A DNA stretch of 40,076 nucleotides from Geobacteraceae bacterium (GTDB lineage Bacteria; Desulfobacterota; Desulfuromonadia; Geobacterales; Geobacteraceae): contig WSYB01000021.1 of assembly GCA_009773645.1 (NCBI GenBank), positions 26,715 through 66,790 of the forward strand, in the 5' to 3' direction. The position numbers and the translations under genes are program-made. Of the stretch, positions 7,790 through 37,921 are shown piece after piece (positions within the stretch are counted from its first letter, which is position 1; each line of letters opens with the position of its first letter). Under the pieces are notes generated by a model. That model was not told where the DNA came from, searched no databases, and saw only the letters and a list, made by a program, of their open reading frames with translations.

Positions 7790-10700
7790 CTAAGTGCATT
7801 TCAAAATATTCATGATGTTATAGGCTGACTTTTCCGGATAATGTCCCGCGATAGTTTTGATCGCTCCCGTCTGGAGCTTCAAACGTAGCTTGTGATTGGC
7901 AATCAAATGGTTAAGGGCCACCATACAATTTGCCTTCGAACTTGTATCAACCAGCAAGGCGTTTTGCTCATGTAGCGCAAAACTATTGCTTCCCCCTGAT
8001 TTTGGGACAATAACAGCGACGCCACAGGCCATGGCCTCCATCGCAGTAAGACCCATTGCTTGGAACGTTGAGAAGTCCGCAAAAATATCTGCTTCATTGA
8101 ATAATAAAGCTAACTGCGTAGAAGACTGGAAGCCGACATTGCGGAATGCGAAATCCCTTGGCAGTGACAAAAAGTCGGGGTCTTCAGGGCTTACGCCAAA
8201 GACAATGATATCAACCTTATCACCATAATTTTGCGACACCTCGCGGAGCAATTCCATCGTGACCAATGGGTTTCTTCTCGGAGTATTAGGCCGAATCATC
8301 GCAACAATCCGGATTGGTCTGTCCGGCCAGCTGGCATCTCTGCGAACACGTGGTCTGAACAAAGCCACATTGCAACTTGGCCCAATTACATGGCAATCAC
8401 GACCGACCTGTTCTCGAACTACAGCCTTATTCCATTCTGTTTTGGTAAAATAAGTCATATCAGGTATCAGGTTATATGATTCCAAAGCGACATTGTACTC
8501 TTTTGTCCCTTTGTTATAAAAAAATGGTTCGTAATCCTGAATATAATAGCCCAATGTTATCTGTTTATTATTTATTAAAGGCACCAACCAAGGGACTGAT
8601 GTATTTGATGTTGCGATTACAACATCAAAAATTTGACATATTTTGTGAACTTCATCACGTGATGGCGCATATATTACAGGTACGTCAAGACCGTGATAAC
8701 TTCTTTCGAAATCTTCACGCGCAACCGCTAAGTTCAATATCCGACAATCTACGCCAAATTTTCTTAATGCTTGAGCCTCTGAAATTACTACATTAGCTCC
8801 ACCGCAGGCTTCTCTTATCGGCAGGATAAAGACAACTCTTTTACCCTCCCATTGTTTTCGAGCCTTCTCAATCAGATATTGTCGTTCTATGAGGAGTTTA
8901 GCATGACTTCTGAGTCCCAATAGCACTTTGTCATTTGTGCAGAATTCCACACTATCATCAATAATTTCTTTCCCATGCTTTTTGGCCAATGCAACTCCGG
9001 CCTCTGCGCTTAACTTACTGCGGCGTTCATGGGAATAACTTTTCGATTGAGCGTGATAAATGTAGACATCATCTGCTATAGCAAGGGTCCATCCTGCAGC
9101 ACGGGCACGGAGGCAATAATCGTTCTCTTCGCCGTACCCCTTTGCAAACGTCTCTTCATCGAAGTAACCGATGTCACTCACAACCTGTCTTTTTATCATG
9201 ATGCAAAAACCATTCAGAAGCGTAATCCGAGGATAGACCCGCTCAGACCATGCAGCTACCAGATCACACATTTCGTCAACATTCATCCCTTTGGTTAAAG
9301 GGTTTGCTGACCAATCGCCATCTTCATCAAATATCTCCGGGATAGATTGCCAGGAAGCAGTATTGCTCAAAGGGCCAACAAGCCCAATAGCAGGATCAGA
9401 TTCTGCACACATCACCATCCGATCAAGCCAGTGTTGAGTAACAATTGTATCGCTGTTCAGCAGCACAACATACTCACCCTGTGATGCACGGAGCCCCTGA
9501 TTTGCAGCAAAAGTATACCCTCTGGCAGATTCGTTCCGGATTAAAATTGCGCCTTGATTATCTGCAAAATGTTTTAGATAATCTCTGGTATCATCATTAC
9601 TTCCATCATCTACAATAATAATCGAATAAGGAGGGAAACTGTATCTAACTACAGAATTGAGACACTCCTTGACATCACTCAAAGCGTTATGAACACAAAT
9701 AACAATGTCAAGGTTTGTAGTATGTGGCATTATGCTATGATCGTTCAAATGAATGCTAGAATACTTGGAACTAATATTGATAGCTCGCTCAATGCTGTCT
9801 TGTTGCAGGTTTAATGCACACTCCCTTGTCCTCAGAAACGTGCCTCTAAAACCATACTGAGTCCAATACGCAAACGTTGCTTTCAAGAGAGCTTGCAGCC
9901 CCTTGATTCCGCCACCGTTATCTCTGACATGGGCAGCAACCAGCTTTGCCAACAGTCTTGACGAATTGCCTACATATGATAGTTTACTTGCGCACCATCT
10001 TAAAGGTTGGGTAATCTTCCAGCTATACGAGTTCAAGAGATTATTTATCACGGTATCTTTATCAGAAATCTCATTGTGTAAAAAGGCAATAACATTTTCT
10101 TTTCCCGCGACTTCCTGCTTTAGTTCTGCCGTTTCCTGCTTTAATTCTGCTGTTTCCTGTTTTAATTGTGCCGTTTCCTGCTTTAGTTCTGTCACATAAC
10201 GTATATGTTCCGCAAATTCTTTCAAAGTCTGATGATACATATCATATTCATCACAACCAGTAAAATCCAAGCGGCTTGTCGGAAATATTTCCCCCATGTG
10301 AGGCGGTGGGGCTACTTTTCCCAATCGGAAATTCTCATCAGAATGCATGCATAAATATTCAGCCGCCCGCGCGTTGATGTCCACCTCCCGCGTCAGATCG
10401 AGGTGTCTGATGATGATCTTCAGTGACGGGTTGATCACGTAATAGCCGGCCCGAACAAATTCGTAAGCAATCCGGTTGTCGCAGCCTGGTATTCCTAAAC
10501 AGAAACCAGCAAATATCCTGTCCAGTGGAACGGGGGTTTTAAAAATCCAGGCATCCTGGCTGCCATGGGCATAGGCGGCATCCACCAGCTTTATGCTGCC
10601 GTCTTTCTGTACGTCGTGGCGTGTCAGGGCGAATATGGAGTTATCAAGGTTGGCTTCTTGCAGATGTAGTAAGCTTTCATCGAAATAAATATCCGCATTG

Positions 10701-10957
10701 GCCAACATCCAGAAGTCATGGCTCTGAAATTGATTAGCATATTGAAACGCCTTCTCGAAAGTCAGTCTTTCCTTTATAACAGTTTGCCCGATTTTTTCCT
10801 GATTGGGAAACTGCGAGAGGTCGAACTGCTCTTCGGTGAGAAGATGGATCATGCTGATGTAAGGATTTTGCAGATTATTGACGAGACAACTGTCAATTTC
10901 CTGCTGACGATCTTCGCGGTCGCATTTGTAATATTGTACAATAAGATGAATTTTCAT
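7790..10957 (-). CDS. Multidomain glycosyltransferase (GT2 plus GT4, coiled coil)
   Basis: Predicted 1055-residue protein. Residues 1-240 form an N-terminal domain with FWMLANADIYFDESLLHL, suggestive of a divergent GT-A or sugar-binding domain. Residues about 256-310 are a coiled coil built from ELKQETA heptads. SYSWKITQPLR near 310 matches a motif found at the C-termini of two other proteins in this window. A GT2 domain follows (about 416-660), with IVICVHNALSD, IIIVDDGSNDDTRD, LLNSDTIVT and GYGEENDYCLRA. A C-terminal GT4-type domain (about 720-1055) has RIVAMIRPNTPRRNP and FQAMGLTAMEAMACGVAVIVPKSGG with its E-x7-E-like donor site. The ATG at 10957 avoids overlap with the preceding gene, though no ribosome site is evident. 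Such fusions can add several linkages or control chain length; which applies here is unknown. Confidence 0.92.
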   Translation of the reverse strand: MKIHLIVQYYKCDREDRQQEIDSCLVNNLQNPYISMIHLLTEEQFDLSQFPNQEKIGQTVIKERLTFEKAFQYANQFQSHDFWMLANADIYFDESLLHLQEANLDNSIFALTRHDVQKDGSIKLVDAAYAHGSQDAWIFKTPVPLDRIFAGFCLGIPGCDNRIAYEFVRAGYYVINPSLKIIIRHLDLTREVDINARAAEYLCMHSDENFRLGKVAPPPHMGEIFPTSRLDFTGCDEYDMYHQTLKEFAEHIRYVTELKQETAQLKQETAELKQETAELKQEVAGKENVIAFLHNEISDKDTVINNLLNSYSWKITQPLRWCASKLSYVGNSSRLLAKLVAAHVRDNGGGIKGLQALLKATFAYWTQYGFRGTFLRTRECALNLQQDSIERAINISSKYSSIHLNDHSIMPHTTNLDIVICVHNALSDVKECLNSVVRYSFPPYSIIIVDDGSNDDTRDYLKHFADNQGAILIRNESARGYTFAANQGLRASQGEYVVLLNSDTIVTQHWLDRMVMCAESDPAIGLVGPLSNTASWQSIPEIFDEDGDWSANPLTKGMNVDEMCDLVAAWSERVYPRITLLNGFCIMIKRQVVSDIGYFDEETFAKGYGEENDYCLRARAAGWTLAIADDVYIYHAQSKSYSHERRSKLSAEAGVALAKKHGKEIIDDSVEFCTNDKVLLGLRSHAKLLIERQYLIEKARKQWEGKRVVFILPIREACGGANVVISEAQALRKFGVDCRILNLAVAREDFERSYHGLDVPVIYAPSRDEVHKICQIFDVVIATSNTSVPWLVPLINNKQITLGYYIQDYEPFFYNKGTKEYNVALESYNLIPDMTYFTKTEWNKAVVREQVGRDCHVIGPSCNVALFRPRVRRDASWPDRPIRIVAMIRPNTPRRNPLVTMELLREVSQNYGDKVDIIVFGVSPEDPDFLSLPRDFAFRNVGFQSSTQLALLFNEADIFADFSTFQAMGLTAMEAMACGVAVIVPKSGGSNSFALHEQNALLVDTSSKANCMVALNHLIANHKLRLKLQTGAIKTIAGHYPEKSAYNIMNILKCT
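10112..10192 (-). repeat. 21-bp coding tandem repeat (coiled-coil heptads)
   Basis: About four copies of a 21-bp unit reading TTTCCTGCTTTAGTTCTGCC with variation on the plus strand. On the minus strand they encode successive seven-residue ELKQETA heptads, the coiled coil of the large glycosyltransferase. Copies differ mainly at synonymous positions. Slippage or recombination here would change coil length by whole heptads without a frameshift. Confidence 0.88.
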
Positions 10958-10973
10958 AATGTTAGCATTGACT

Positions 10974-12047
10974 TTATCTTTTGAACAGATCAAGAATACG
11001 TCTGACAGGTTCGGTCATTCTCCAACTGAGGCTCTTTTGCAACGCTTCAATCTTGACCGCGCAATCCAGCTCTTTACTACGAAGCAAGTTTATCTCGTCA
11101 AGCTTTGACCTCCTGTCTCCTTCTGTTTCGGTCAACTTGTTAATAAGGTAATTGATAACCAAATCAGAATTATCAGAAAGCTTGTATATTTTATGTTGAG
11201 ACGGCGAAAACGCACTATCCATATACGACGTTACTCCTTGAAAAGAAACAATGACAGGATCGGGGGCTGGTAATAAATCCTTGTCGCAATTTTGAAACAG
11301 AATTGTTTCTTCTTCCAGAACCTTTTCAGCTTCGTCAATGTATTTATCCATAGAAAGGGCTGCTTTTTGATCCCCGTGCCTGCGATAGCCTCCAAGCAGA
11401 GTATCTACAGTATAAAGCCGTGTATGGCGGAAAAAGCGTGTCCACAATTCCAAATCACCGGCATATTTTAAATTGGTACGCAAACCACCACCCGCTTTTA
11501 CCCACAGGGAGCGGCGCCAGAAAGTGCTTTCCTGCTGAATCCAAGGTTTATCATACTCTTTTCCAACAAATTTTGCTCGGGAATATGCCGGCAAGGGACC
11601 GGTATCGATGTCCTCGATATTACCATCCTTATCCCACCAGCTATGCCTGCCGGTCAGCCATTCGATATTTTCGTTAGCTGTAAACAGGTAGGCTACCTTA
11701 TAGAAGGCGTGGTGATGGTACTTGTCGTCGGAATTCAACCAGGCCATTATTTCGCCGGTGGTTTTTCCGAACCCTTCCTGTATTGCAGCATACTGGCCGC
11801 CATCCGGCTTGCTCTGCCAATAGGTCAGGTACTTTTCGTGCTTCTTGATGATCTCTACTGAGTTATCACTGCTGCCGCCGTCCATGACGATGTATTCGAG
11901 GTTAGGATAGTTCTGGGAAAGAACGGAATCGATGCACTCTTCCAGGAAATCGCCTTGGTTATAAGAGGCGGTGACTATTGATATTTTGGGCAGTTCATTG
12001 TTCATAGGGCACATCGCTTTGAACGATATATATTTTAGTGAGTTCAT
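10974..12047 (-). CDS. Family 2 glycosyltransferase with coiled-coil tail
   Basis: Predicted 357-residue GT2 enzyme. ISIVTASYNQGDFLEECIDSV begins near residue 23, YIVMDGGSSDNSVEI near 52 holds the nucleotide-binding acid, and IMAWLNSDDKYHH near 100 is the DxD equivalent; KYAGDLELWTRFF near 205 is the acceptor/base motif. The last 60 residues are helical and charged and end in SLSWRMTEPVRRILDLFKR, the tail motif shared with two other enzymes here. ATG at 12047 is used; ATGs at 12014 and 12005 (MNNELPKISIV) are also plausible, and none has a strong ribosome site. It is the first gene after the sulfur operon. The donor is unknown; WcaA-like exopolysaccharide enzymes have this form. Confidence 0.9.
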   Translation of the reverse strand: MNSLKYISFKAMCPMNNELPKISIVTASYNQGDFLEECIDSVLSQNYPNLEYIVMDGGSSDNSVEIIKKHEKYLTYWQSKPDGGQYAAIQEGFGKTTGEIMAWLNSDDKYHHHAFYKVAYLFTANENIEWLTGRHSWWDKDGNIEDIDTGPLPAYSRAKFVGKEYDKPWIQQESTFWRRSLWVKAGGGLRTNLKYAGDLELWTRFFRHTRLYTVDTLLGGYRRHGDQKAALSMDKYIDEAEKVLEEETILFQNCDKDLLPAPDPVIVSFQGVTSYMDSAFSPSQHKIYKLSDNSDLVINYLINKLTETEGDRRSKLDEINLLRSKELDCAVKIEALQKSLSWRMTEPVRRILDLFKR

Positions 12048-32824: not shown

Positions 32825-32892
32825 GGGACCGGGATTCGGGATTCGGGATTCGGGAACCGGGGACCGGGGACCTGGGACCTGGACCGGGAACC
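32825..32892. repeat. CGGGANN heptamer array
   Basis: G-rich 7-bp units (CGGGATT three times, then CGGGAAC, CGGGGAC and CTGGGAC variants). It is part of the roughly 400-bp gene-free gap between the YVTN gene and the TPR membrane gene. The rest of the gap holds the sigma-54 candidate, about 45 bp of unique DNA and the next array. Confidence 0.93.
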
Positions 32893-32938
32893 ATGAAGCG
32901 AAATTAACGCCTCTTGCCAAAATTGTCAATTGAATTTT

Positions 32939-33120
32939 CGGGGACCGGGGAGGGGATCCGGGGCATAAAATCCGTGATTCGGGACTCGGGAACTTAAAAT
33001 CCGGGACTCGGGATTCGGGATCCGGGATCCGGAAAAGCCTTTACTCTTCCCGCTTCCCGGCCTTTCCCGCTTCCCGGCCTTTACTCTTCACGCTTCCCGG
33101 CCGTCACCGCTTCCCGGCTC
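32939..33120. repeat. Composite inverted heptamer array
   Basis: A G-rich arm of CGGGANN units, including a TTAAAATCCGGGACTCGGGA cassette near 32994, leads to GGAAAAGCCTTTA, then a C-rich arm of CTTCCCG units. The arms are inverted copies and could pair in RNA. The array supplies the last residues (AGKR) and TGA stop of the TPR membrane protein gene. Confidence 0.93.
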
Positions 33121-34864
33121 TTACAGCCGCCTCAAGCTGGGCCGCGAGCCGCGCATCGAGTCTCTTCAACCTGGGCACGATCGCCTGGGCGGAAGCGACG
33201 TCACCGAGCTGAATCAGTGCCAGCCCTGCGTTGTAGAGGGCATTGGGATATCCCGGCGCCATCTGAGCGGCCAGTGTGAAAAAATAGAGCGCCTGCAGCG
33301 GCTTTCCCTGCCGAAACAGCGCCGTGCCCAGATTGTCGTAGGGGAGATAATAATCCGGCCGCAGCTTGATCGCCTCCTTTAACGTCTGCTCCGCCTCACC
33401 CCAGCGCCCCGCATCGGCGTAAGCGGTTGCCAGGGTCAGATAATTGCGCTGATTGTGAGGGGCTTTGCGGACATTGTCCCGGGCAAAGGCGATGGTGTCG
33501 GCCCACAGGGAATTGCGCTGCCAGGTCAGAACGGAAAAGATCAGGATGACCAGACAGGTCAGCGCGGTCCTCACCCGGACGCGCGGAACCCGGCGCAAAA
33601 GCTCCGGCACCACGAGCGCAAAACCGAACATCGTCATGTAGAGGCGGTGCTCCATCACCGCATCGAGGGGGATGACCGTGGATTCCACCGAAAGAGTCAG
33701 AAAGAACCAGAAGATGCCGAAGGAGACGAGCGGCAGCTTTTTCCGCACGTACACCGCCAGACAGAACAGCAGCAGCAGGCCAAGGAAGGCCGCCGCCGTC
33801 TGCAGAGTTACGATCTCGCCGACCAGTGGGTAGCCGTAGTCGAAAACCTGCCCGTACGGGAGAAAGAGGAGACGGAGGTAGAGCCACAACACCGAGAACT
33901 CCGTCGCCAGGTAGACGAGCCGTAAATTCGCGGGGGGCTTGGCAAGGGTGACGGGGGCGGGCGCTTTCGCAGCTTTTGCAGCTTCAGCGGCCGGCTTTTC
34001 AGCGGCCGGGGCCACAGCGGCCTTTGTCCAGTACTGAGCCCTCACCTCATCCTTGAGGACTGACGCCTCACTGCCGATCTGCCGGTAGGAAATCAAGCAG
34101 GTCACCAGCAGAAAGGGGACGAGATAGACCAGGAGCGAGGAGCGAGGAACAAGGAACGAGGAACAGTGAGCAGTGAATTTGCCGGTTCCCGCTTCCCGGC
34201 CTTTCCCGCTTCCCGGCCTTTCCCGGTTCCCGAAAAAAAGATCGACCATCACCAGCGCCACCGGGAGCACCGCCGCATTCTGCTTGGTGCCCAAGGCGAG
34301 AACGCCGCTGGCGATGGAAAGCCCATAGAAAGCCAGGTGGCGGAGTGAGAAGAAACGTTCCCCCCCTTGGAGCCTCTCCCTGGCCACCATGAAGAGAAGG
34401 ATCGACAGGAAGAAAAAAAGTCCGCACAGGCTCGCCATGCGCTGCACGATATAGTTGACCGCCTGGGTCTGGAGCGGATGGGCCAGAAAAATGAGCGCCC
34501 CGGCCGCCGGTAAAAAGCCGGGAAGCGGGAAGCGGGAAGCGGGAAGCGGGGACCAAAATACCCTCTTCAATATCAGATAGATGATGAAGGAGGTGAGGAT
34601 GTGGATGGCGATATTGACCAGATGAAAACCGTAAGGCTCCAGCTCCCCGAAATGATAGTTGAGGGCAAAGGAAAGGTACGCGACACCGCGCGGCCCGGCA
34701 ATCCCGCTGAAGGCCCCGGGGAGATCGCGAATGGAAAGGTTGTCGATTATATTCTGAATATCGTCGAAAAGCCAGGGGATGTGCAACGTCCTGGAATAGA
34801 GCAGGCTTCCCACTGCGACGAGCACGATAAAACAGGCGATGTCACGCCACCGGTTGTTCATCAT
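33104..34864 (-). CDS. Multi-pass membrane protein with C-terminal TPRs
   Basis: Predicted 586-residue inner-membrane protein. Several spans from residue 8 to about 455 include the conserved FLAHPLQTQAVNYIVQRMASL near 128, typical of a TMTC/DUF1736-like, GT-C-style family, and VIPLDAVMEHRLYM near 400. The C-terminal 115 residues carry about three TPRs (RNYLTLATAYADAGRWGEAE, PDYYLPYDNLGTALFRQGK, PNALYNAGLALIQLGD). Uniquely, heptamer DNA lies inside the gene in frame: one insertion encodes SPLPASRFPLPG near 105 and another encodes GNRERPGSGKGREAGTGK plus a serine-rich stretch near 215-240. Both fall in loops between spans. GAGGT precedes two adjacent ATGs. The stop also comes from a repeat. A role in protein or glycan modification is plausible but unproven. 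Confidence 0.9.
   Translation of the reverse strand: MMNNRWRDIACFIVLVAVGSLLYSRTLHIPWLFDDIQNIIDNLSIRDLPGAFSGIAGPRGVAYLSFALNYHFGELEPYGFHLVNIAIHILTSFIIYLILKRVFWSPLPASRFPLPGFLPAAGALIFLAHPLQTQAVNYIVQRMASLCGLFFFLSILLFMVARERLQGGERFFSLRHLAFYGLSIASGVLALGTKQNAAVLPVALVMVDLFFGNRERPGSGKGREAGTGKFTAHCSSFLVPRSSLLVYLVPFLLVTCLISYRQIGSEASVLKDEVRAQYWTKAAVAPAAEKPAAEAAKAAKAPAPVTLAKPPANLRLVYLATEFSVLWLYLRLLFLPYGQVFDYGYPLVGEIVTLQTAAAFLGLLLLFCLAVYVRKKLPLVSFGIFWFFLTLSVESTVIPLDAVMEHRLYMTMFGFALVVPELLRRVPRVRVRTALTCLVILIFSVLTWQRNSLWADTIAFARDNVRKAPHNQRNYLTLATAYADAGRWGEAEQTLKEAIKLRPDYYLPYDNLGTALFRQGKPLQALYFFTLAAQMAPGYPNALYNAGLALIQLGDVASAQAIVPRLKRLDARLAAQLEAAVRAGKR
34131..34232. repeat. Heptamer insertion inside the TPR membrane gene
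   Basis: Three heptamer families are joined within coding DNA: GGAGCGA/GGAACAA units, then CAGTGAG/CAGTGAA units, then a C-rich TTCCCGG array with GGCCTTT spacers. On the minus strand it stays open and encodes GNRERPGSGKGREAGTGK followed by FTAHCSSFLVPRSSLLV. Confidence 0.9.
34518..34554. repeat. Second heptamer insertion inside the TPR membrane gene
   Basis: Five near-perfect units of CGGGAAG. On the minus strand they encode SPLPASRFPLPG between two membrane spans, with no frame break. Confidence 0.92.
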
Positions 34865-34880
34865 CTAGTACCTCTTTATT

Positions 34881-35052
34881 TCGGGATCGGGGATCGGGAC
34901 ATAAAATCCGGGATTCGGGACTCGGGATCCGGGATCCGGAAAGGCCTTTACTGTTCACGCTTCCCGGTTCCCGACCTTTCCCGGTTCCCGCTTCCCGTTT
35001 CCCGGTTCCCGGCCTTTACGCTTCCCGCTTCCCGGCCTTTCCCGCTTCCCGA
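34881..35052. repeat. Composite inverted heptamer array
   Basis: A CGGGATC/CGGGACT arm with the cassette ATAAAATCCGGGATTCGGGA, then GGAAAGGCCTTTAC, then CTTCCCG/GTTCCCG units. It fills the 151-bp gap between the GT4 and TPR genes and continues into the GT4 gene, encoding its final KDREAGKAGKREA and TAA stop. Confidence 0.93.
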
Positions 35053-36305
35053 TCCTTTACCAGCCGGTATATTTCCGCAAGTTCCTTCCCTCTGGCCAGC
35101 CAGGAATGGTCCCGTTCCGCCTTTTCCCGTACCCTTCCGGCCAGGTCCGCCATCCGGGGCTTATCCCGAATGAGGTCCGCTATCCGGGCGGCAAAGTCGG
35201 CGGCGTCTCCGTACCTGGCATAGACCCCGGTATCGCCGAGAATCTCGCGGTTTACCGGGGTGTCGAACACCACGGTGGGAAGCCCGCAGGCCATGTAATT
35301 CAGAAGCTTGCCGTTTGCTTCGCTTAGGGATATCTTCGGAGAGACGGCAATATCGCCGGCGGAGAGGTAAACGGGTGCCCTGGCATAGTCGATCCTGCCG
35401 GTAAAGGTTATGGAGCCGCCGACTCCGGCTTCTTCGGCCTTTTGCCGGTATTTCCCATCGGGAAAGCCCATTATCAGAAAGTGCAGGGACACCCCCGCCT
35501 CCTTGAGCATCCTGATCGCCTCCAGCAGCAGATCAATCCCCTGATACCGGTTAAGGACCCCCAGGAAAACCGCTACCGGCTTGTCCAGCGGAAGCCCCAA
35601 CTCCCTGCGGGCGGCCTCCCCGGGGAACGGCCTGAACTCGTCGGTGTCGACTCCATCCATCACCCCCCTGACGCCGTCATTGCCGGCCCCCCGGTTTTCC
35701 CTGAGCTCTCGGGCTCCTGCGCCGGAACTGGTGATGATGAAATCGGCCCGCCGGTTGATGAACCTCTCCAGGTGCCGGAAAAGGCCGTACAGCATCGACC
35801 CCCGCCTGATAAAACCATGATCGAGCATCTCCGCCGTAAGGCTCCCCTGACAGTCGAATACCAGGGGAACGGACAGCAGCCTTCGGAGAAACAGACCGAT
35901 GAACGCCCCTTCGTGGAGGTGGGCGTGGAGGATATCGGGCTTGAAAAGCCTCGCCGCCGTGAGCGCCCGGCATAGCAGGATCATATCCAGATAGGGCTTG
36001 TGCCAGGACGGCCCGGCGGCAAGCTTCTTATACCAGGGCACCGCCGGAATGCGGTAGGTGGGTATCCCGGGCATGTCGCGGCCTATATGGTAGGTGACAA
36101 TGCGGACCTCGTGGCCGAGCCGGATAAGGGCGCGGGCTTCCTCGTAGATGCGGACATGGCAGCCGCGGTCGGCAAAGTACGGGGTCGGCGCCAGCATGAG
36201 GACGCGGAGAGGGCCGGGAAGCGGGATCCGGGAAGCGGGATCCGGGGTCCGGGAAGCGGGATTCGGGAAGCGGGAAGCGGGATCCGGGAGAAATGCTTCA
36301 GACAT
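35016..36305 (-). CDS. GT4 glycosyltransferase with repeat-encoded ends
   Basis: Predicted 429-residue GT-B enzyme. LRVLMLAPTPYFADRGCHVRIYEEARAL is the first acceptor-domain strand and loop; DILHAHLHEGAFIGLFL near 120, DGVDTDEFRPF near 215, VAVFLGVLNRYQGIDLLLEAI near 240 and SPKISLSEANGKLLNYMACGLPTVVFDT near 340-368 (donor-site E) are diagnostic. Residues 6-32 are translated heptamer repeat (LPDPASR, FPNPASR, TPDPASR, IPLPGP). No ATG, GTG or TTG lies between this repeat and the conserved LRVL strand, so the start must be the ATG at 36305 (AAGGGG seven bases upstream) or at 36311. The C-terminus is also repeat-encoded. The gene overlaps the end of the S23-family gene by 8 bp. Confidence 0.92.
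   Translation of the reverse strand: MSEAFLPDPASRFPNPASRTPDPASRIPLPGPLRVLMLAPTPYFADRGCHVRIYEEARALIRLGHEVRIVTYHIGRDMPGIPTYRIPAVPWYKKLAAGPSWHKPYLDMILLCRALTAARLFKPDILHAHLHEGAFIGLFLRRLLSVPLVFDCQGSLTAEMLDHGFIRRGSMLYGLFRHLERFINRRADFIITSSGAGARELRENRGAGNDGVRGVMDGVDTDEFRPFPGEAARRELGLPLDKPVAVFLGVLNRYQGIDLLLEAIRMLKEAGVSLHFLIMGFPDGKYRQKAEEAGVGGSITFTGRIDYARAPVYLSAGDIAVSPKISLSEANGKLLNYMACGLPTVVFDTPVNREILGDTGVYARYGDAADFAARIADLIRDKPRMADLAGRVREKAERDHSWLARGKELAEIYRLVKDREAGKAGKREA
36214..36290. repeat. Heptamer array encoding a GT4 N-terminus
   Basis: Eleven 7-bp CGGGANN-type units (77 bp) lie inside the 5' end of the GT4 gene. The minus-strand frame has no stop and no start codon and encodes 7-residue repeats rich in Pro, Ala, Ser and Arg. 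Confidence 0.93.
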
Positions 36306-36663
36306 TAGCATTCCCCTTGGTCCGGTAATGCCGAATGAGGCCGTTTAGCATTTGTTTTATCGCTAGAACTCGATGTGCCGTCTCCGTATGATTGTCGCCA
36401 AACCCCAGCCGTTCCGCAATGATGAGCTGCGTTTCCAATTCAGCGGCGGACCCGAGCGCGATAAATAGAAACTGAACGAATTCCTTGCTCGTATTTCTCG
36501 CAGCTCCTTCGGCAATATTCGAAGGGATCGAAACTGCCGCCCTTCGCATCTGGCCCGTCAAACCGTACACCTCTTCCCTGGGAAACGATGCCGACAGCCG
36601 GTATATCTCGGTAACCAGGTCGATACTGTTTTTCCAGACATCCAGTTCTTTGTGATCTTTCAT
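36298..36663 (-). CDS. Four-helix-bundle protein, S23/IVS family
   Basis: Predicted 121-residue protein of the S23 ribosomal-intervening-sequence family, a four-helix bundle whose pentamers are thought to bind nucleic acid; the same fold includes the Avd accessory protein of diversity-generating retroelements. ELDVWKNSIDLVTEIYRLSASFP near the start, TGQMRRAAVSIPSNIAEGAARNTSKEFVQFLFIALGSAAELETQL through the middle, and a final helix are all typical, and the length is normal. ATG at 36663 is used; GTG at 36666 is one codon upstream. No rRNA gene or reverse transcriptase is nearby. It overlaps the start of the GT4 gene. Such genes are frequent between unrelated operons; the function here is unknown. 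Confidence 0.92.
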   Translation of the reverse strand: MKDHKELDVWKNSIDLVTEIYRLSASFPREEVYGLTGQMRRAAVSIPSNIAEGAARNTSKEFVQFLFIALGSAAELETQLIIAERLGFGDNHTETAHRVLAIKQMLNGLIRHYRTKGNANV

Positions 36664-36678
36664 CACTCAACACCATTT

Positions 36679-36859
36679 CGGGATCCGGGAACCGGGAACT
36701 TAAAATCCGGGACTCGGGACTCGGGAAGCGGGATCCGGAAAGGCCTTTACGCTTCACGGTTCCCGGCCTCTCACGCTTCCCGCTTCCCGGCCTTTACACT
36801 TCCCGCTTCCCGGCCTCTCACGCTTCCCGGCCTTTCCCGGTTCCCGCTTCCCGGCCTTT
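36679..36859. repeat. Composite inverted heptamer array
   Basis: A G-rich arm containing ACTTAAAATCCGGGACTCGG, then GGAAAGGCCTTTAC, then C-rich CTTCCCG/CGGCCTTT units. It fills the gap between the S23 gene and the DPM1-like gene and encodes the last 13 residues (KGREAGTGKGREA) and TGA stop of the latter. Confidence 0.93.
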
Positions 36860-37798
36860 CAGATTCACCGTTTCCCTTACCACATAGATCGGCTTTGCCT
36901 GGGCTTCGTAATAGGTCCGGGCGTTCAGCTCGCCGAGGAGCCCCAGGACGATGAACTGCACCCCCATGAAGAGGAGGAAGGCGGTAAGGATCAAGAGGGG
37001 ATTCCTGTTCATGCTGGTATGTTCGAACAGCTTCATGTAGATGGTGACGCCGCCGCTCAAGGCTCCGGCCAGGAGGGTGTACACCCCCCACTTGCCGAAA
37101 AGCTGGATCGGTTTGGTGGAGTAAGTGAGGAGGAACTTCACCGTCATCAGGTCGAGAACGACCCGCATGGTGCGGGAGATGCCGTATTTGCTCTTGCCGT
37201 AAAGCCTCGGATGGTGTTTTACCGGCAGCTCGGTCACCTTGGCCCCCACCTGGGAAGCGAGCGCCGGCACAAACCGGTGCATCTCCCCGTAGAGGTTTAT
37301 CCCCTCCAGCACCTCACGGCGGTACGCCTTGAGAGTACAGCCGTAGTCGTGGAGATGGACGCCGGTCAGCCTGGAGATGAGGAGATTGGCGAGTATTGAG
37401 GGTAGTTTGCGATTAACGAAGGTGTCCCTGCGCTCCCTGCGCCACCCCGAAACCACGTCGTACCCCTCCTCGATCTTTGCCAGAAGCAGCGGTATATCGG
37501 TCGGGTCGTTCTGCAGGTCACCATCCATGGGGACGACGACCCGGCCGGTGGCGGCATTAAAACCGGCAGCCATGGCGGCAGTCTGGCCGAAGTTGCGCCG
37601 GAAGCGAATCACCTTGACCTGCGGGTCCCGCCGGGCAAGGTCGCGCAAAAGCTCAAAGGAGCCGTCGAGAGAGCCGTCATCGACCATTATAAGCTCGTAA
37701 GCGAGGCCGCTCTCCGCCAACGCAGCATTCACCTTGCCATACAGGGCCGGGATGTTTTCTTCCTCGTTGAATATGGGCACCACGATGCTTAAGTCCAC
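36818..37798 (-). CDS. GT2, polyprenyl-phosphate sugar synthase-like
   Basis: Predicted 326-residue membrane-linked GT2 enzyme of the DPM1/GtrB/ArnC type, which loads a sugar onto polyprenyl phosphate. SIVVPIFNEEENIPALYGKV opens the protein; LIMVDDGSLDGSFE near 38 and VVVPMDGDLQNDPTDIP near 88 hold the metal site; FRRNFGQTAAMAAGF near 68 is family-specific. Two C-terminal membrane spans follow (LLAGALSGGVTIYMKLF and LLILTAFLLFMGVQFIVLGLLG). The start is GTG with AAGGTG six bases upstream. The last 13 residues are heptamer-derived. It may feed a GT-C enzyme such as the neighbouring TPR membrane protein (inference). Confidence 0.94.
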   Translation of the reverse strand: MDLSIVVPIFNEEENIPALYGKVNAALAESGLAYELIMVDDGSLDGSFELLRDLARRDPQVKVIRFRRNFGQTAAMAAGFNAATGRVVVPMDGDLQNDPTDIPLLLAKIEEGYDVVSGWRRERRDTFVNRKLPSILANLLISRLTGVHLHDYGCTLKAYRREVLEGINLYGEMHRFVPALASQVGAKVTELPVKHHPRLYGKSKYGISRTMRVVLDLMTVKFLLTYSTKPIQLFGKWGVYTLLAGALSGGVTIYMKLFEHTSMNRNPLLILTAFLLFMGVQFIVLGLLGELNARTYYEAQAKPIYVVRETVNLKGREAGTGKGREA

Positions 37799-37813: not shown

Positions 37814-37921
37814 CGGGAACCGGGAAAGGCCGGGACTCGGGATCCGGGAACCGGGAACCGGGAACCGCAAAAGCCTTTACGCTTCCCGCTTCCCGGCCTT
37901 TCCCGGTTCCCGGTTCCCGGC
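37814..37921. repeat. Composite inverted heptamer array
   Basis: CGGGAAC and CGGGACT units, then GCAAAAGCCTTTAC, then CTTCCCG and GTTCCCG units. It fills the gap between the spermidine-synthase-like gene and the GT2 gene. The unique TAG stop at 37923 lies directly beside it. Confidence 0.93.

Follow-up and report, generated by a model that had tools for sequence, protein, structure and literature searches.

Heptanucleotide tandem arrays in frame within loops of a TPR membrane protein gene of a Geobacteraceae bacterium, and their recurrence in homologous proteins

The stretch of DNA analysed (hereafter the window) comprises 40,076 nucleotides of a 4.74-Mb draft genome, and contains, among glycosyltransferases and other polysaccharide-type genes, a gene coding for a polytopic TPR membrane protein the reading frame of which is traversed by two blocks of heptanucleotide repeats (Table 1). 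TRF combined with direct reading of the sequence confirmed the presence of both period-7 blocks (34131-34232 and 34518-34554) as described in the initial annotation, and the open reading frame crosses each of them without a stop codon. The shorter block encodes SPLPASRFPLPG in frame (residues 105-116, loop A), and the longer block, which occupies the loop of residues 211-245, is a composite within which, as had been noted, three heptamer families meet. Two further claims of that annotation, that the blocks lie in loops between membrane spans and that both the HPxQTQAVxYIxQR block and the TPRs beside the arrays remain intact, were likewise borne out, the former by an AlphaFold model (mean pLDDT 87.7; 50 sequences) in which both blocks are predicted to fall between helices: no helix was assigned at residues 103-116 (pLDDT ~68-82 in that region) or 212-240 (48-66 over 211-240).

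Table 1. Coordinates of the host gene and of the repeat arrays, together with the loops and domain junctions at which arrays were located
Feature	Position	Strand	Basis
586-aa polytopic TPR membrane protein	33104..34864	-	ORF call, Pfam, AF2, VIA-align
Shorter block: heptamer array CGGGAAG x4.6 (34519-34550, 100% matches)	34518..34554	+	TRF
Longer block: AGGAACG-type heptamer array, 4.9 copies, encoding residues 234-245	34131..34164	+	TRF
Longer block: about two heptamers CAGTGAG, linking its other two families	~34164..34177	+	sequence reading
Longer block: 17-nt composite TTCCCGC-TTCCCGG-CCT x2.8	34186..34232	+	TRF
Heptamer/composite arrays downstream of TPR gene, into its last codons (33104-33118)	32828..33118	+	TRF
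Heptamer/composite arrays upstream of TPR gene, into end of GT4 gene (35016-35051)	34881..35051	+	TRF
Heptamer array encoding residues 8-33 of GT4 gene 35016-36311(-), N-terminal extension	36214..36289	+	TRF, frame check
Heptamer/composite array downstream of, and into C-terminus of, gene 36818-37798(-)	36742..36876	+	TRF
Intergenic heptamer arrays	37814..37920	+	TRF
Loop A, homologues (7 arrays)	residues ~101-118 (P0001 numbering)
Loop B, homologues (6 arrays)	residues 161-182 (P0001 numbering)
Loop '2', homologues (1 array)	residues 211-245 (P0001 numbering)
Loop C, homologues (11 arrays)	residues 370-380 (P0001 numbering)
Loop D, homologues (2 arrays)	residues 420-438 (P0001 numbering)
Internal array, E2 acyltransferase linker			Pfam
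Internal array, before ABC-F C-terminal domain			Pfam
Internal arrays, both junctions of TP_methylase-CbiA-GATase fusion			Pfam
Internal array, after CbiD			Pfam
Internal array, before Fer4 domains of Fe-S protein			Pfam
Internal array (L119), inside Fer4 span, between two motifs			Pfam

Characterisation of the predicted protein indicated that TPR Pfam matches were confined to residues 475-572, and all ten families matched at E ≤ 0.001 were TPR models; the Pfam TMTC model gave no match, for which reason the protein is filed here as a member of a GT-C/TPR family and not as a TMTC protein. A plain Foldseek search returned TPR or TPR-like chains, as judged by their names, among the 50 matches listed, and the GT-C matches were obtained with VIA-align, which superimposed the membrane part on Stt3 (8age_A: Z 19.6, 332 aligned residues, rmsd 4.6), Pmt1-Pmt2 (6p25_B: Z 19.3, 348 aligned, rmsd 4.5) and ArnT (5f15: Z 17.3, 319 aligned, rmsd 4.5). 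The membrane part is predicted to adopt a GT-C-like glycosyltransferase fold, a shared fold which gives no function. Asp34, located after the first helix, is invariant in the family, and this residue together with the predicted GT-C-like fold is a feature common to the TMTC proteins and the PMT/Stt3/ArnT enzymes. Eukaryotic TMTC proteins also carry C-terminal TPRs, as does the protein under study. One search for relatives covered 58 genomes; another retained the best 80 of 163 relatives, and those with the best matches include, by name, Geobacter sp. and Pelotalea chapellei.

Comparison with 14 aligned homologues established that the arrays of both blocks are absent from the relatives examined, and led to different outcomes for the two loops, each of which had been supposed to be extra. 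The longer block conforms to that claim: residues 208-248 span 41 residues here, 16-21 in 13 homologues and 44 in one (L047). For the shorter block it holds only against four of the 14, since the stretch corresponding to residues 100-118 (19 residues here) amounts to 8-10 residues in those four, among them the closest relative, L006 of genome G001 (10 residues; 58% identity in search pieces, 54% over the gene), and to 22-36 in the other ten; loops at least as long in homologues, which the initial annotation itself had named as speaking against its view, are consequently what was found at this position. One of those ten, L009, owes part of its longer stretch to a heptamer array, and loop A of array-free homologues averages 23.7 residues. 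As judged from these alignments, the length of loop A varies with or without arrays, and, because the loop is longer in 10 of the 14 relatives and of that mean length where arrays are missing, the shorter array may occupy or stand in for existing loop sequence and need not have lengthened the loop. In the Nitrospirae homologue L047, a different-looking extra peptide (FVIPVKTGIQ...SCFRRNN) aligns to residues 211-245 (P0001 numbering), the loop of the longer array; we take it to resemble a dispersed palindromic repeat read in frame.

The survival of the reading frame had been ascribed to insertion in multiples of three units. Relative to L006, the net gains at the two blocks are 66 and 27 nt, neither of them a multiple of 21, and three-unit (21-nt) stepping is thereby ruled out here as the cause of the kept frame. 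Because 7 = 1 mod 3, a heptamer array is translated into an identical heptapeptide repeat whichever of the three frames is read (CGGGAAG yields REAGSGK, and its reverse PASRFPL). Of all heptamers, 69% are free of stops when a given strand is considered, and 87% when either strand may serve. A perfect array of about three units or more is therefore either wholly open or wholly closed, and the sole remaining demand is on length modulo 3: the kept frame needs no three-unit steps, the total length being what decides.

Arrays of the same kind occur elsewhere in the window (Table 1). Array DNA encodes most of the first ~34 residues of the GT4 gene 35016-36311(-) (36214-36311); the orthologue of this gene in G001 aligns from residue 35, and the true start may lie downstream of the annotated one. 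The adjacent gene 36298-36666(-), of the PF05635 23S-rRNA-IVP type, has heptamer arrays on both sides (36209-36876) and is situated between two glycosyltransferase genes which in G001 nearly abut, so that on sequence comparison the gene looks to have been inserted together with its arrays. A mobile cassette consisting of arrays plus such 23S-IVP (four-helix-bundle) genes was nevertheless dropped as a general mechanism, as two of the four PF05635 genes over the cut-off in the genome are without period-7 arrays in the loci retrieved, such arrays being present in the loci of the window's own gene and L201. Of 12 window genes tested, six occur in unchanged order in G001, where 20 kb contained no period-7 array. 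A 21-nt tandem repeat (3.8 copies, 10112-10191) was also recorded inside the long ORF 7790-10993(-).

Extending the analysis to 440,076 bp (the window plus 20 stretches, some of them picked because they held hits) yielded 47 period-7 arrays as against none in a first-order Markov control, and 0-2 arrays at each of periods 4, 5, 6, 8, 9, 10 and 11; 25 of the 47 were intergenic, 13 were at gene ends and nine were internal. A 400-kb sample chosen by a fixed rule, which all the same includes a stretch (C51:1-20000) holding a second family gene, L139, that accounts for one of its five internal arrays, gave 22 period-7 arrays (ten intergenic, seven at gene ends, five internal) versus no more than one at any of the other periods between 4 and 12, from which ~260 period-7 arrays per genome may be extrapolated. 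With 86% of the sampled DNA called as ORF, the genes having been called by an ORF plus base-composition rule and not by a gene finder, heptamer arrays are under-represented inside coding sequence (p 1e-8 against an assumed 80% coding). Outside the gene for the 586-aa protein, six of the seven internal arrays in the 440 kb were located between or beyond Pfam domains.

The 47 arrays comprise 21 exact unit families, the largest with 14 members (random heptamers: 45.7 and 1.65), in a sample partly chosen for CGGGAAG hits. The main unit family is almost exclusive to this species: the CGGGAAN pattern gave 97 matches in its own genome, compared with four for a reversed control, whereas 140 further genomes of the order gave 0-7 matches apiece. 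In several of the 140 it is the reversed control that finds matches, and these genomes therefore carry other heptamers. When positions 34125-34240 were used as the query, at least 60 similar places were found in the same genome, the query itself included (E ≤ 0.001; 40 of 152 candidates scored), at least 25 of the 60 listed being located at about 1.5-79 kb of contig C47, which holds the window. CGGGAAN conforms to G3N4 and the GTGAAAG, AACGTAG and CCCTTTG-type families do not, as a result of which G-quadruplex formation was set aside as a general common denominator.

A survey of the family itself was then compiled from 172 homologue ORFs, reduced to 168 by removal of duplicates and of matches under 70 bits; this reduction also removed an array-bearing duplicate in L156 that was later counted among the 'other' ORFs. 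Fifteen of the 168 (318 kb) contained between them 29 period-7 arrays, together with three of period 8 and none of periods 4-6 or 9-12, the remaining 153 homologues being array-free. Two of the 29 were C-terminal, and all 27 internal arrays fell in five loops (Table 1), the limits of which were drawn after seeing the hits of this first set and were used unchanged for a second. These loops make up 36.5% of the connecting residues, giving p 1e-12 for 27 of 27 if arrays were spread evenly; independent events may be fewer than the array counts, as paralogues may share arrays by descent, and a conservative count of 11 lineage-loop combinations gave p 1.5e-5. The units vary by lineage (CGGGAAG, CGGAATG, GGAACGA, CGTTCTA, GGATCGA, GTTCGAA, ACGCTAT and others). 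In 123 array-free homologues the five loops have a mean net charge of +1.4 to +2.9, while of the seven other connecting segments all but one are negative, the exception being a short one at +0.56. Since they are net-positive, the positive-inside rule predicts that the array loops are cytoplasmic; helix 314-334 is ambiguous for the count of membrane passes, and the predicted side is founded on charge together with the GT-C comparison.

The density of internal arrays in family genes (27 per 318 kb) was 10-15 times that in neighbouring genes, other ORFs of at least 250 aa in the same loci having three per 360 kb; one of these three belongs to the family gene left out as a duplicate, and without that array the difference corresponds to p 2e-7. 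Expressed as array-bearing proteins, the figures were 15 of 168 for the family and two of 296 for the others (p 1e-5). A second set, of Nitrospirae family ORFs (69 matches listed in seven genomes, 30 loci analysed, 37 ORFs, of which 20 remained once duplicates and previously used ORFs had been taken out), contained 11 period-7 arrays in nine proteins, all 11 within loops B (nine) and C (two), in addition to two period-8 arrays; this equates to 11 arrays in 36.6 kb of family genes versus two in 66.9 kb of flanks. As five of the seven genomes were picked for known array-bearing family genes and several of the genes look like array-sharing paralogues, the set provides support and is not an independent replicate of array frequency. 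The same genomes (G141-G147; L207-L236) each gave 6-19 matches to the GT-C/TPR family, these matches being segments and the gene numbers accordingly somewhat lower, and the family appears notably expanded in all seven.

Taken together, these data make it probable that both blocks are members of a dispersed, genome-wide population of heptamer arrays, kept in genes by filters of stop codons, frame and loop tolerance. Arrays would arrive or expand at many places in the genome and be retained within a gene where the unit is stop-free, leaving the array open whatever frame is entered, where the inserted nucleotides sum to a multiple of three, and where the resultant peptide sits in a linker or loop able to take it. 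In the GT-C/TPR family the permissive sites would be the five loops, all short and net-positive, whose predicted location is on the cytoplasmic side, away from that of the putative active site; the units of the arrays found in them differ from lineage to lineage. Dispersal would proceed by copying combined with local slippage, and retention would be near-neutral. With respect to copying, the loop-C composite of the L026 gene, compared with L166 (G028), comprises a GTTCGAA-block plus a CACCAAT-block that recurs inverted just 3' of the gene (83% over 89 nt), and this recurrence of a composite beside its gene suggests that whole composite arrays get copied.

Slippage in place, starting from a seed that the gene already contained and involving no dispersal, would account for the Nitrospirae loop-B unit (TACGCTA-like), which appears from its sequence to run into the Tyr-Ala codons starting the next helix, but is rather unlikely as the explanation of the blocks described here: in the window genome the same units turn up at numerous unrelated loci, and further occurrences of the 17-nt composite include its junction.

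A second alternative is selection of the array peptides for a function, for instance that of flexible or charged cytoplasmic heptapeptide linkers which engage a partner or modulate the enzyme, with the DNA heptamer as a fast source of them. Two observations accord with this: arrays built of different units are found in the same loops, and the array density of family genes equals or surpasses that of non-ORF DNA in the same loci (30 per 437 kb) or of the Nitrospirae flanks, which exceeds the prediction of plain tolerance and therefore leaves room for a selected function. On the other hand, orthologues 81% identical (L014 and L023) have unrelated units and peptides in the same loop C, most homologues manage without any array, and the longer array loop was poorly predicted in the structural model, so that selection of this kind is judged unlikely.

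A third possibility, that the arrays constitute a phase-variation switch in which gain or loss of units frameshifts the gene on and off, derives some plausibility from the fact that a one-unit change of seven shifts the frame, and from the position of the gene among the glycosyltransferases of a surface-polysaccharide-like cluster. However, orthologues of a related gene at 94% DNA identity in G009 and G028 (the latter 84% complete with 6% contamination) have the same loop-C units and equal array lengths, no length change having occurred in two loop-C arrays inside which substitutions have accumulated, and both single-base gaps between the two genes fall outside the arrays; arrays sit, moreover, in ordinary genes too, and a switch of this type seems improbable. 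An assembly or sequencing artefact, conceivable in that many relatives are MAGs and repeats are error-prone, is very hard to reconcile with loop-C arrays that appear both in separate assemblies and in two genomes consisting of a single contig each (G009, G020), or with ORFs that stay open through the arrays.

Filtered retention of a dispersed heptamer population can also be set beside known systems. Rickettsia palindromic elements, like the heptamer arrays described here, are in-frame insertions of repetitive DNA into protein-coding genes of bacteria, but differ in being palindromic and about 100-150 bp in length. The contention that tolerance of such a repeat family is unusual in bacteria was not upheld: internal arrays account for 9/47 and 5/22 of those sampled in this one genome, and there are precedents from G. 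metallireducens (PMC2700814) and Nostoc (PMC4692102). The GGGNATC and GGGGAYT arrays of Xanthomonas and Nostoc are described in the latter (Rehm et al. 2015) as dispersed through the chromosome, mostly intergenic and of G3N4 units, with intragenic shares of 11% and 7% in two Xanthomonas and with 68% intergenic in Nostoc. Those arrays and the present ones are alike as dispersed, partly intragenic heptanucleotide tandem repeats; this genome differs in having several unit families, not all of them G-rich, and the passages compared do not mention a recurring host gene family or loop positions. The Gmet_H4 elements of Geobacter metallireducens (PMC2700814) are also heptanucleotide arrays of a Geobacter host, the kinship of which to the window genome is inferred at order level; their unit is different, and some are inside genes and were read as regulatory elements, protein loops not being mentioned in the passages compared. 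The Beggiatoaceae TAACTGA direct repeats (PMC4679880) have one unit and are found particularly upstream of start codons; that one orientation is open and codes for a repeating heptapeptide, and that tolerance between modules may occur, has already been proposed for them, so that heptamer repeats and the open-orientation argument are common to both. Since intragenic heptamer arrays and that argument are already in print, dispersed heptamer arrays, some of them inside genes, are already known and the window blocks belong to that kind. Literature searches for the GT-C/TPR family with heptamer arrays gave nothing beyond PMC4692102, PMC2700814 and PMC4679880, and what looks new is the recurrence of varied heptamer arrays at the same loops of one protein family.

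In practical terms, stretches such as REAGSGK or PASRFPL should be annotated as the products of DNA repeats and not as conserved motifs. Heptamer arrays occur widely among bacteria, and in-frame arrays that occupy the same loops with lineage-specific units amount to a natural experiment on the entry of repeat DNA into proteins, and bear both on its limits (stop codons, length modulo 3, membrane side) and on the question of neutrality. A more speculative reading, to which we give only slight credence, is that the GT-C/TPR family serves as an evolutionary landing pad, arrays being repeatedly kept in its cytoplasmic loops as useful frame-agnostic heptapeptides for partner binding or enzyme tuning. 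If true, non-coding repeat DNA would be raw material for new protein loops, the units of which turn over between close species.
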